Source: Acidobacteriaceae bacterium (GTDB taxonomy: Bacteria; Acidobacteriota; Terriglobia; Terriglobales; Acidobacteriaceae). Taken from it: a stretch of 64,000 nucleotides of DNA. The position numbers and the translations under genes were made by a program. The stretch covers positions 62,001 to 126,000 of the forward strand of contig PLXE01000115.1 in the NCBI GenBank assembly GCA_003151335.1. The letters are read 5' to 3'. The notes under the pieces were generated by a model. The model had not been told where the DNA came from, did no database searches, and worked only from the letters and a program-made list of their open reading frames with translations. This document shows, in pieces, positions 52,776 to 55,607 of the stretch (positions within the stretch are counted from its first letter, which is position 1; each line of letters starts with the position of its first letter).

Positions 52776-52801
52776 AACATGCCCTTCCTACCTGATCGGC
52801 C

Positions 52802-52841
52802 TATAACATACATAACACAACATACAATACAATACAATACA
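52802..52841 (-). promoter_or_regulatory. ATACA pentamer repeat in the presumed promoter/operator of the PIN operon
   Basis: Four perfect tandem copies of ATACA (52822-52841), preceded by a degenerate ATAACAT series down to 52803, lie 27-66 bases before the partner gene start. On the minus strand this is a TTGTAT-rich tract that could hold the -35 and -10 boxes and repeated operator sites for autoregulation. Confidence 0.4.
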
Positions 52842-52907
52842 AGACATGCAATGACAACCAAGCATAGCCAGTTCAATTTAGGTGCGAAGCGAGGGGCAGA
52901 CAGGCTC

Positions 52908-53612
52908 TCAGATCTGGTAATCCATCTCGATTGCCTGCTGCAGCTTGTCAGTTCCGTTGGTCGGCGCCGGGGACGGCTGACGCCCTTGCAGGCGGCACAC
53001 TTCGTCCTTCAGTATTTTGACTTCGTTGGCCACCGCAGATAGCGCCTCCGACAGCGGATCGTTGATCTGCTTGGGATCGGTGATCACCACCCGCTTGCCT
53101 TCGCGGAGAACAATGTGGCCGGGCACGCCAACTACGGTTGAGTTGTCGGGCACATCGCGCAGCACTACCGAGCCGGCGCCAATGCGGCAATTTTCGCCGA
53201 TGGTGATATTGCCAAGTATCTTTGCGCCCGAGCCAACCACGACATTGTTGCCGATGGTGGGGTGCCGCTTGCCGTGTTCCTTGCCGGTGCCGCCCAGCGT
53301 GACGCCCTGGTACAACGTGACATCGTCGCCCACGATGGTGGTCTCGCCGATGACCACTCCCATTCCGTGGTCGATGAAAAAGCGCCGCCCAATTTGTGCG
53401 CCGGGATGGATCTCGATGCCGGTAATCAGCCGCCCGAGTTGCGACAGGGCCCGGGCAGGGAATTGCCAGCCATGGGTCCACAGCCAGTGGTGGAAGCGGA
53501 AGCCCCACAGCGCGTGCAGCCCGGAGTAGAGCAGAATGATTGCGAGCGAGGAGGTCGCCGCGGGATCGCGGTCCTTGACAGCAGCGATGTCCTCACGCAC
53601 GGATGCAAACAT
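52908..53612 (-). CDS. cysE: Serine O-acetyltransferase
   Basis: A 234-residue hexapeptide-repeat enzyme making O-acetylserine from serine and acetyl-CoA. The N-terminal helical domain is short, and the left-handed beta helix is clear: [20 protein letters not shown] (catalytic His), [41 protein letters not shown] long C-terminal tail ([20 protein letters not shown] onward) is not part of the core and may contact CysK. It begins three bases after cysK on the same strand. It should be controlled with cysK, including by the leader ORF at 54655-54765. Confidence 0.95.
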
Positions 53613-53615
53613 TTT

Positions 53616-54581
53616 TCAAACGCCTTCCGCCACCATGGCGAGCGACTCATTGCGGAGCTGCTCGAACAGGAGGCTGCTCAGGTAACGCTCGCCGAACGAC
53701 GGGACGATGACGACGATCAGCTTGCCTGCGTTCTCGTCGCGCCCAGCAACTCGCAACGCGGCAGCCACCGCCGCCCCTGACGAAATGCCCACCAGCAGAC
53801 CTTCTTCCTTTGGCAGGCGGCGCGCCATCGCCAAGGCGTCCTCACTCGACACTTGGATGACTTCATCAATATAGTCGGTGCGCAGAATGCTGGGAACAAA
53901 GCCGCCGCCGATGCCCTGGATCTTGTGCGGGCCGGGTTGCCCGCCGGAGAGAACGGCGCTCTCCACCGGTTCGACCGCGACCGCCTTGAACGACGGCTTC
54001 TTCGGCTTGATGTACTCGCAGATCCCGGTCAGCGTGCCGCCGGTGCCGATGCCCGAGATCAGGAAGTCCACTTTGCCGTCGGTGTCGTTCCAGATTTCCG
54101 GCCCAGTGGTCTCCAGGTGGATCTTGGGATTCGCCGGATTGTCGAATTGCTGCAGCATATAGCCGTTAGGTGTTTTGGCGAGCAACTCATCGGCCTTGGC
54201 GATTGCGCCCTTCATGCCCTTGATGCCCGGCGTCAGCACGATGTCCGCGCCAAAGGCCTTCAGCAGCACACGGCGCTCCAGGCTCATGGTGTCGGGCATG
54301 GTGAGGACCAACTTGTAGCCTTTCACCGCTGCCACGAACGCCAGCGCAATACCGGTGTTGCCGCTGGTGGGCTCAATCAACACCGTCTTGCCGGGCTGGA
54401 TTTTCCCCCCGCGCTCGGCTTCGTTGATCATGCTGACGCCGATGCGGTCCTTCACGCTGCTGCACGGGTTCTGGCTTTCCAGCTTGGCGACGACCGTGGC
54501 CTTGGCGCCGGCGGTTACCTTGTTGAGGCGCACCAATGGAGTGTTTCCAATCAACTCCGTAACGTCATTCGCAATCTTCAT
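53616..54581 (-). CDS. cysK: Cysteine synthase (O-acetylserine sulfhydrylase)
   Basis: A 321-residue PLP enzyme converting O-acetylserine and sulfide to cysteine. Lys44 in [11 protein letters not shown] binds [17 protein letters not shown] binds the substrate carboxylate, and [10 protein letters not shown] binds the phosphate. The C-terminus ends in a short tail. GGGAG lies just before the ATG, 73 bases downstream of a leader ORF rich in Cys codons. It is the first structural gene of a cysK-cysE operon. Confidence 0.96.
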
Positions 54582-54625
54582 AGCGATCTCCCAAAAACTT
54601 GGATTCGGGCAGTGGATATACGGTT

Positions 54626-54703
54626 TGATTCAGTGGAGGCGGGTAAAGAATCAGCTAAAAGCAACAACAACAGCACGAGGTTTGTTGGCTGGCGCCAACC
54701 TCG
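54626..54703 (-). promoter_or_regulatory. Two hairpins flanking the Cys codon run of the leader
   Basis: On the minus strand a stem of CGAGG (54703-54699) with CCTCG (54680-54676), extended inside by TTGGC with GCCAA, ends immediately before the five Cys codons. A second stem (TGATTC / GAATCA, 54653-54648 with 54631-54626) starts right after the leader stop and presents CCGCCTCC in its loop, which could pair with the cysK ribosome site GGGAG. A ribosome stalled on the Cys codons would unfold the first hairpin. Whether the second is an alternative or anti-antiterminator fold needs a folding test. Confidence 0.45.
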
Positions 54704-54765
54704 AACTGAAAGCGCGTGTATGTGGGGTTGCCGAACATAATGCGAATACGCGTATAGCTTAGCAT
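54655..54765 (-). CDS. Candidate cysteine-attenuation leader peptide with five consecutive Cys codons
   Basis: A short ORF between rsmE and cysK. From ATG 54765 (overlapping the rsmE stop) it gives 36 residues; from ATG 54738 it gives 27, starting MFGNPTYTRFQFEVGASQQT. Both end with Ser, five Cys codons in a row (54661-54675: TGC TGT TGT TGT TGC), Phe and TAG, 73 bases before cysK. Cysteine codons are rare, so five together directly upstream of the cysteine-synthesis operon are unlikely by chance. The natural reading is ribosome-mediated attenuation or a translational switch: low Cys-tRNA stalls ribosomes at this run. Poly-Cys leaders are known upstream of cysteine genes in some Actinobacteria; I know of none described in Acidobacteriota. 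Confidence 0.6.
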   Translation of the reverse strand: MLSYTRIRIMFGNPTYTRFQFEVGASQQTSCCCCCF

Positions 54766-55535
54766 TCCGCCCTGGTTATCGCCACTGCCGCAATTGCAGC
54801 GGTCTCGGCGCGGAGAATGGTATTGCCGAGTGACACGGCAAGCCATTGCGTCAATTCGAAGAGCTGCAACTCATCTGTGGTCCAGCCACCTTCGGGACCG
54901 ACGGCGAGCGCCAGCGAGGTCACATGGTCGTGTGCGCGCAGCACTTCGCTGAGCGTGGCTTCTGGTGCGGCTTCTGCCAGAACGATTCGCAAGTCGCAAC
55001 GCGGTTGACCGCAGATCTCTCGACTGAAACTAGAGTCCTCGCGAGGCATGACAGCGGGGTCGTGGAAGTTAGCGAGCGCTTCCTTCAGCTTTACTGGATT
55101 GGCGATCTCGGGGGGTGCGATGCGGCGCGACTGCTCGGCAGCTTCACGAGCGATCCTCCGCCAGCGCTCGGCCCGCTTGTCCGCGGCAAGAGCAAGATGC
55201 TTTTCAGTGCGCCGCGCAATCACGGGGATGATCGTGGTGACGTTCAGTTCCGTGCACTTCTCGATCGCCCACTCCATGCGATCGAATTTGAAGACGGCGA
55301 GCAACAGGGCGATGGGAACAGCCTCGCGGGCCGTGACTTCTTCACCCAGGGTGAACTCCACTCGCTCGTCCTGCACGCTGGAAACGGTGGCCCGCCGGAC
55401 TTGCTCGCCGCAAGCGACTTCGAACTGCTGGCCGACGCGCGCGCGCAAGGTGCGAGACAGGTGTGCGGCGTGCGCGCCGGTCAAGGCGGCGCGATCGCCG
55501 GAGAACTCGTCGGCAATCCAGCGGCGTCGGGTCAT
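54759..55535 (-). CDS. rsmE: 16S rRNA m3U1498 methyltransferase
   Basis: A 258-residue SPOUT methyltransferase. ATG 55535 gives the family start MTRRRWIADEF; the longer upstream frame is not used. The N-terminal PUA-like barrel (AHLSRTLRARVGQQFEVACG) is followed by the SPOUT domain with LAVGPEGGWTTDELQLF and SLGNTILRAETAAI, which form the SAM-binding trefoil knot. It methylates uridine 1498 in 16S rRNA. Its stop overlaps the start of the poly-Cys leader. Confidence 0.93.
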   Translation of the reverse strand: MTRRRWIADEFSGDRAALTGAHAAHLSRTLRARVGQQFEVACGEQVRRATVSSVQDERVEFTLGEEVTAREAVPIALLLAVFKFDRMEWAIEKCTELNVTTIIPVIARRTEKHLALAADKRAERWRRIAREAAEQSRRIAPPEIANPVKLKEALANFHDPAVMPREDSSFSREICGQPRCDLRIVLAEAAPEATLSEVLRAHDHVTSLALAVGPEGGWTTDELQLFELTQWLAVSLGNTILRAETAAIAAVAITRAEC

Positions 55536-55607
55536 GGCGTCATCAGCAACAAGGCGTAGATGCGGAGGGTCTTGTCCAAGGGTATCTATTGCCGGCTTGC
55601 GGCACAT

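Follow-up and report, generated by a model that had tools for sequence, protein, structure and literature searches.

A conserved putative cysteine leader upstream of cysK-cysE in an Acidobacteriaceae bacterium, with two further leader designs on cysK among its relatives

What is the role of a short open reading frame (ORF) that ends in five consecutive cysteine codons directly upstream of genes for cysteine synthesis? The question is raised by a 64,000-nucleotide stretch of DNA from an Acidobacteriaceae bacterium (here called the window), in which such an ORF, read from the minus strand, separates rsmE (54759-55607, minus; PF04452) from the cysK-cysE operon. cysK (53616..54581, minus; PF00291) encodes a PLP-dependent enzyme, O-acetylserine sulfhydrylase, a name that beyond family level we infer from the neighbouring cysE (52908..53612, minus), a serine O-acetyltransferase with PF06426 (SATase_N) and hexapeptide repeats; the two genes constitute the last two steps of cysteine synthesis. 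As no NIR_SIR sulfite reductase was found in any of the nine genus genomes (six at least 90% complete, three only 71-82%), cysK-cysE, at the sulfide-using step, is a sensible point of control. Near the PAPS-reductase-family genes of the genus (L255-L260, both strands) there is no leader-like ORF; one short ORF with CCC in L260 lies on the strand opposite to the gene. Following cysE, the window holds a further ORF of 25 codons with six Cys (MLGCHCMSCIVLYCMLCYVCYRPIR; 52788-52865, minus), partly derived from a 5-base repeat (52822-52846) and succeeded by a 140-aa ORF and then a PIN-domain ORF. Neither of the latter two had a match in the available stretches of the eight other genus loci, and the 25-codon ORF is therefore probably a coincidence.

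An earlier note on the window had described a leader of 27 or 36 codons ending in five Cys codons, Phe and stop, 73 bases before cysK, and these coordinates are right. Both start options exist, of which the inner one is the likelier: the 27-codon form (MFGNPTYTRFQFEVGASQQTSCCCCCF; 54655..54738, minus, plus stop) begins at the ATG at 54738 and ends CCCCCF-stop, whereas the in-frame 36-codon form (MLSYTRIRIMFGNPTYTRFQFEVGASQQTSCCCCCF; 54655..54765, minus) is probably unused, because its start (54765-54763) sits on a conserved -10 element. This putative extended -10 element of the cysK-cysE operon, TGCTAAGCT (54756..54764, minus), overlaps the start codon of the longer form as well as the rsmE stop, and no clear -35 box was seen with it. 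The motif TGNTANNCT, picked after inspection of the leaders, begins 21-39 nt upstream of the inner ATG in 8/8 genus leaders and has eight matches on both strands of the whole window, the leader's own included, or 0.004 per 60 nt. With the inner ATG 17 nt past the -10 element, the window leader is predicted to have a short 5' UTR and to be near-leaderless rather than leaderless. The five consecutive Cys codons, TGC TGT TGT TGT TGC (54661..54675, minus), are putative control codons one codon (Phe) from the stop. Two hairpins lie where the earlier note placed them: one, found by folding, within the ORF and abutting the first Cys codon (54676..54703, minus), with a similar hairpin seen by eye in the leader of L007; the other a short, weaker stem, TGATTC/GAATCA (54653-54648 with 54631-54626, minus; fold and reading), that begins one base past the stop and is conserved in the alignment among the closest relatives only. 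The leader folds modestly better than its shuffles (z = -1.96; 9/200 as good). Between the leader stop and the cysK ATG at 54581 there is a C-rich, G-poor spacer of 73 nt (54582..54654, minus), a candidate Rho-loading stretch, in which the cysK Shine-Dalgarno (SD) sequence GGGAG occupies 54588..54592 (minus; reading and fold).

The conservation test that the earlier note had suggested, namely whether close relatives keep a Cys-run ORF while its surroundings drift, came out in favour of the leader. cysK is present in 9/9 genus genomes, and in eight of them an ATG-started ORF ends in 3-5 Cys codons placed 1-2 codons before the stop, with the terminal residues SCCCCCF, LRCCCCL (twice), SRCCCCL, CLCCCCCR, CPCCCCR, CPRCCCR and CRCCCCPR. 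In each of the nine loci the leader stop lies 72-75 nt from cysK, and the run, stop and spacer are constant while the peptide bodies vary freely among near relatives (MFGNPT..., MLHSRT..., MMRIDT...). The ninth locus, L006, retains KCCCCL-stop and 93% CysK identity without an ATG, GTG or TTG start, its upstream region having been replaced by a repeat-like insert, and is the clearest evidence against a strict requirement for the leader. Coupling to rsmE translation, also proposed in the earlier note, found no support: rsmE lies upstream in 5/9 genus loci and is absent from three of the other four, whose flanks are long enough to show it and in which promoter element and leader ORF are still present (the fourth, L119, being covered for 225 nt upstream), and the -10 element overlaps the outer ATG.

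Beyond the genus, comparison extended to 96 close cysK orthologue loci (CysK tblastn bits > 340) from 94 of 200 sampled genomes of the order; 168 genomes had some CysK match, more distant paralogues were excluded, and G165 was left out, its match beginning at the contig end with nothing upstream. A recognised Cys leader of one of three designs, with labels set partly by eye, precedes cysK in 43/96 loci and none was recognised in the other 53, L006 included, from which it follows that the leader is dispensable over evolution. The window type, design I, lacks a terminator and has its Cys run 0-2 codons from the stop, as is the case for the run in 11/11 leaders: five within the 96 loci (L001, L007, L008, L048 and L078) and six from genus loci outside them.

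Judged on its sequence, the window ORF is very probably a leader, or attenuator, and it may be said with good confidence that a ribosome translating 54655-54738 would measure cysteinyl-tRNA and so set cysK-cysE expression. Cysteine-responsive, ribosome-mediated attenuation, with cysK-cysE switched on when cysteine is short, is probably the best reading. How the signal would reach the genes is less certain, with Rho termination in the spacer tentatively preferred at slightly less than an even chance. With the control codons so close to the stop, a waiting ribosome would, in the simplest scheme, shield the start of the spacer from Rho. When cysteine is sufficient, the ribosome would pass the Cys codons and leave at the stop, the C-rich 73-nt spacer would be exposed, and transcription would stop short of cysK, with Rho the likeliest agent; under cysteine shortage, the ribosome would wait at the Cys codons, the spacer start would be shielded and RNA polymerase would continue. 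The genome has a rho gene, and the first 60 nt of the spacer contain 21 C and 7 G. Across relatives, the excess of C over G at -75..-15 has a median of 9 in the 11 design I loci vs 1 in 53 loci without a recognised leader (p = 0.0004, in a comparison made after inspection and ignoring kinship among related loci); design III loci are equally C-rich over the same interval (median 9). The arrangement resembles the Rho-dependent leader tnaC of E. coli in having its control codons at the leader end beside the stop, a C-rich spacer and Rho available. Stalling on tnaC is due to its peptide plus tryptophan, whereas in the window it would come from scarce Cys-tRNA.

The principal rival to Rho termination is that the same leader acts on translation, a stalled or reinitiating ribosome controlling access to the cysK ribosome-binding site. 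Such cysteine-responsive translation attenuation is attributed to mycobacterial polycysteine leaders (Canestrari et al. 2020, as cited in the accessible text of PMC13236596 and PMC9031893), and both the partial pairing of the SD in the window fold and the fixed 72-75-nt spacing in the genus would suit it. Ribosome-masked folds give it little encouragement, however, with the window SD unpaired at 0.27 when the ribosome is on the Cys run and 0.29 when it is on the stop, and with a change from stall to stop of at most 0.11 in 9/11 design I leaders; the remaining two, L118 and L007, gain 0.17 and 0.25 at the stop, the wrong sign for induction by stalling. No conserved stem around the SD was seen in the alignment (A1) either, and control at translation is the more doubtful option of the two. 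A riboswitch or T-box was also considered and rejected, since nothing in the window reached the gathering score of an Rfam family; two matches below the gathering score fall within 54560-54780 (E 1.6 and 4.4), and the ten related loci likewise gave two, both below that score.

That the window carries a classical attenuator with an intrinsic terminator of its own is highly improbable. Reading and folding of 54582-54654 found no GC-rich hairpin with a T-run, and a Cys run that abuts the stop leaves little room for a difference between stalling and stopping. In favour of such a terminator, four members of the family do possess one, and L116, from the same genus, has by eye a strong hairpin and then TTTT immediately upstream of cysK. 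The mutually exclusive stems that the earlier note had envisaged are absent from the window leader, which thereby differs from a classical terminator attenuator in lacking both terminator and competing antiterminator; they are predicted instead in the four related terminator leaders.

These four leaders make up design II (4/96 loci), in which the Cys run is internal and a GC hairpin with a T-run comes after it: L013 (MPCCCCLCICTCVPRAD), L023 (MIHCGLHLLCCCLCAGCAD), L068 (MITRSLTCRVSPCCCCDKRPSGDNAIVK) and L091 (MIHCCQKACACPCCCCGAYPGVDVIVN). Folds of the whole terminator were uninformative, the terminator winning in three of the four at any ribosome position, and partial transcripts were used, the nascent RNA up to the terminator loop being folded with the ribosomal A site set at each codon in turn. 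With the ribosome at the start of the main Cys run, pairing of the terminator 5' arm with an upstream antiterminator was 0.67, 0.79, 0.49 and 0.84; with the ribosome at the stop it was 0.41, 0.35, 0.04 and 0.19, the drop falling at, or at most three codons past, the last Cys codons. Shuffled segments did as well in 60, 11, 5 and 8 of 300 cases, L013 alone being weak (60 of 300). The model predicts that in all four leaders occupancy of the Cys codons decides between antiterminator and terminator, in the classical order of attenuation. Classical leader-peptide transcription attenuators are those of the trp, his and ilv type. Design II shares with them the succession of control codons, antiterminator and intrinsic terminator, and differs in the amino acid, cysteine, whose Actinobacteria cases of 2005 lack terminators. 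Cysteine attenuators with terminator and antiterminator have no earlier report among the open-access literature searched.

Design III is a minute ORF, MxRCR-stop with the variants MRRCC-stop and MLRCCC-stop, found before cysK in 34/96 loci in sense and 0/96 in antisense. TANNNT stands exactly 6 nt before its ATG in 33/34 loci (the exception being L076), and the ORF is therefore probably leaderless; in these loci, L034 (1341-1395), L104 and L062 among them, a TTGCCA-like -35 and a TANNCT -10 can be made out by eye. A strict MxRCR-type motif has 31 matches in 30 of the 200 order genomes; by their coordinates, 30 of the 31 matches fall just upstream of cysK, and the reversed control has a single match. 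From the G of the ATG onward the bases pair with CGAYGC some 35 nt downstream, the second position of codon 2 and its partner appearing as GU, AU, CG, GC and UG. Over 34 rows (32 distinct, with the poorly fitting L058 and L076 included), 88.6% of the alignment cells are paired vs 84.0% in shuffles and covariation is 0.219 vs 0.124, with 0/500 shuffles as high in either case; slid controls are 22-43% paired. The number of pairs changed on both sides is not unusual (80/500 shuffles as high), and RNAalifold alone recovers only the inner stem, the outer stem resting on the pair count.

How these designs relate is suggested by a CysK tree of 100 rows, for which bootstrap support is not settled, several branches are long, the L117 row extends beyond its stop and L120 is not included. 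In this tree 33/34 design III loci fall in one clade and the design II loci form two clades apart from each other, one of which adjoins design III, a distribution which argues that designs were gained, lost or exchanged during evolution. It is an evenly balanced proposition that one family equips cysK with three or more cysteine-sensing leaders of distinct architecture, switched in the course of evolution: a stop-abutting run without a terminator, terminator/antiterminator attenuators, and a leaderless MxRCR ORF with a single Cys codon in a covarying stem, which would be a new cysteine-responsive RNA element. Among 80 further loci listed, a scan found polycysteine leaders in three (L152, L153 and L168, on the same contigs as known loci) and an MRRCR ORF in L165, and direct inspection revealed the ORF of L166, the scan's ORF rule missing inner starts; all five positives are acidobacterial records, and Cys-containing ORFs flagged in L158, L206, L217 and antisense L154 were left uncounted. 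Other features were seen upstream of cysK: a tRNA-SeC gene lies directly upstream in L012 (1372-1469) and L022 (1325-1422), and L009, L010 and L016, which lack a Cys leader, have by eye palindrome-like strings at the promoter position (e.g. TATAGTCTAGTATTCTAG in L010) that could represent an operator in place of attenuation.

Could the Cys run have arisen by chance and without any coding role, left behind by a TTG/GTT microsatellite or a promoter element? In the Leu frame (YTG), too, T/C substitutions in the run are silent, and L006 has the repeat but no start codon, both as such an origin would allow. Counts of Cys runs nonetheless render it scarcely credible, and bear out the earlier note's claim that the run is hard to explain by chance. 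Runs of at least four Cys codons occur within 300 nt upstream of cysK in 8/96 loci in sense and 0/96 in antisense, and in 1/634 control windows taken inside or downstream of cysK; for runs of at least three the figures are 12 sense and 2 antisense among the 96 loci, and 29/634 control windows. Genome-wide there are 13 strings of five Cys codons. The 12 other than the window leader were read as parts of frames in another register that are rich in Leu, Ala or Gln; three of these, on contigs C42 and C89, belong to repeats that a contig end truncates. The Cys frame is closed at most two codons after the run in 12/12 sequences (the 11 leaders and L006), whereas the Leu and Val frames of the repeat are mostly open or close elsewhere, without a consistent start. 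Other genera, moreover, have unrelated sequence around their Cys codons, and design III shows a single Cys codon inserted or substituted (MLRCCC, MRRCC). That the ORF encodes a functional Cys-rich micropeptide for metal or redox binding, co-expressed with cysK, has very little to recommend it, for although redox effects on such mycobacterial ORFs are weighed in the accessible text of a 2015 paper (PMC4633059), near relatives differ freely in the body of the peptide but agree in run, stop and spacer, and design III peptides have five or six residues only.

Cys-run ORFs away from cysK are a separate matter. A further match in the window's own genome (G000:C106, L243) was rejected as a leader, having no start codon and overlapping a longer frame. 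A phylum-wide scan for CCCC(C/R)-stop gave 24 matches in 23/396 genomes, fewer than its reversed control, most of them inside long frames of another reading and few of them leader-like. In another family of the phylum, an ORF ending CCCCCCCR-stop lies 321 nt before ATP sulfurylase (L240, G451) and one ending CCCCCCR-stop about 470 nt before a tetrapyrrole methylase (L239, G466). Genus g9 has an ORF MH(T/I/A)(A/I)SRLCCCCR-stop about 105 nt before a protein with an AhpC/TSA-redoxin match (L250, L251, L252 and L254; domain scan of L250 and L252), with by eye a box resembling a -10 some 6 nt upstream of the ATG and two copies in G037; in L248 and L249 of the same genus, an ORF M(I)SRRGSAESCCCCR-stop lies 112 nt before an outer-membrane protein with a carboxypeptidase-regulatory domain (L248 scanned).

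Leaders of the window's kind have precedents in another phylum. The accessible text of Seliverstov et al. 2005 (PMC1262725) describes, for Mycobacterium and Propionibacterium acnes, leaders of cys operons in which a run of Cys codons lies close to the stop, and a Cys-run leader before cbs in Bifidobacterium longum; it reports no conserved terminator hairpins in alignable Mycobacterium regions and offers Rho, in a tna-like manner, as one possibility. Shell et al. 2015 (PMC4633059), in its accessible portion, places ribosomes on one Cys ORF in M. smegmatis. The window leader shares with these a short ORF, a Cys run near the stop, a position upstream of cys genes and the absence of a conserved terminator, and differs in its phylum, in a -10 element that ends 17 nt before the ATG and would make it near-leaderless (for mycobacteria, mRNAs that begin at the start codon are reported), and in having relatives that also use terminator-based and MxRCR designs on cysK. 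For Acidobacteriota no report of cysteine leaders appeared in the open-access literature searched, judged by listings; the earlier note's suggestion of a regulator undescribed in this phylum therefore stands as far as searched, whilst a similar design has been on record from Actinobacteria since 2005. What the sequence comparisons point to is a conserved cysteine leader of a known kind in a phylum that is new for it, as far as searched, together with two further designs on cysK.

If this is true, cysteine attenuation would be no actinobacterial oddity, occurring also in a major and poorly studied soil phylum. Attenuators would gain one functional class in a phylum for which, according to the accessible text of a 2010 paper (PMC2965389), almost none of the predicted attenuators had an associated function. 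The named strain Terracidiphilus gabretensis S55 (locus L166) carries the design III element, which opens that design to bench testing. One gene read by three leader designs would, finally, make Rho-type, terminator-type and leaderless control directly comparable.
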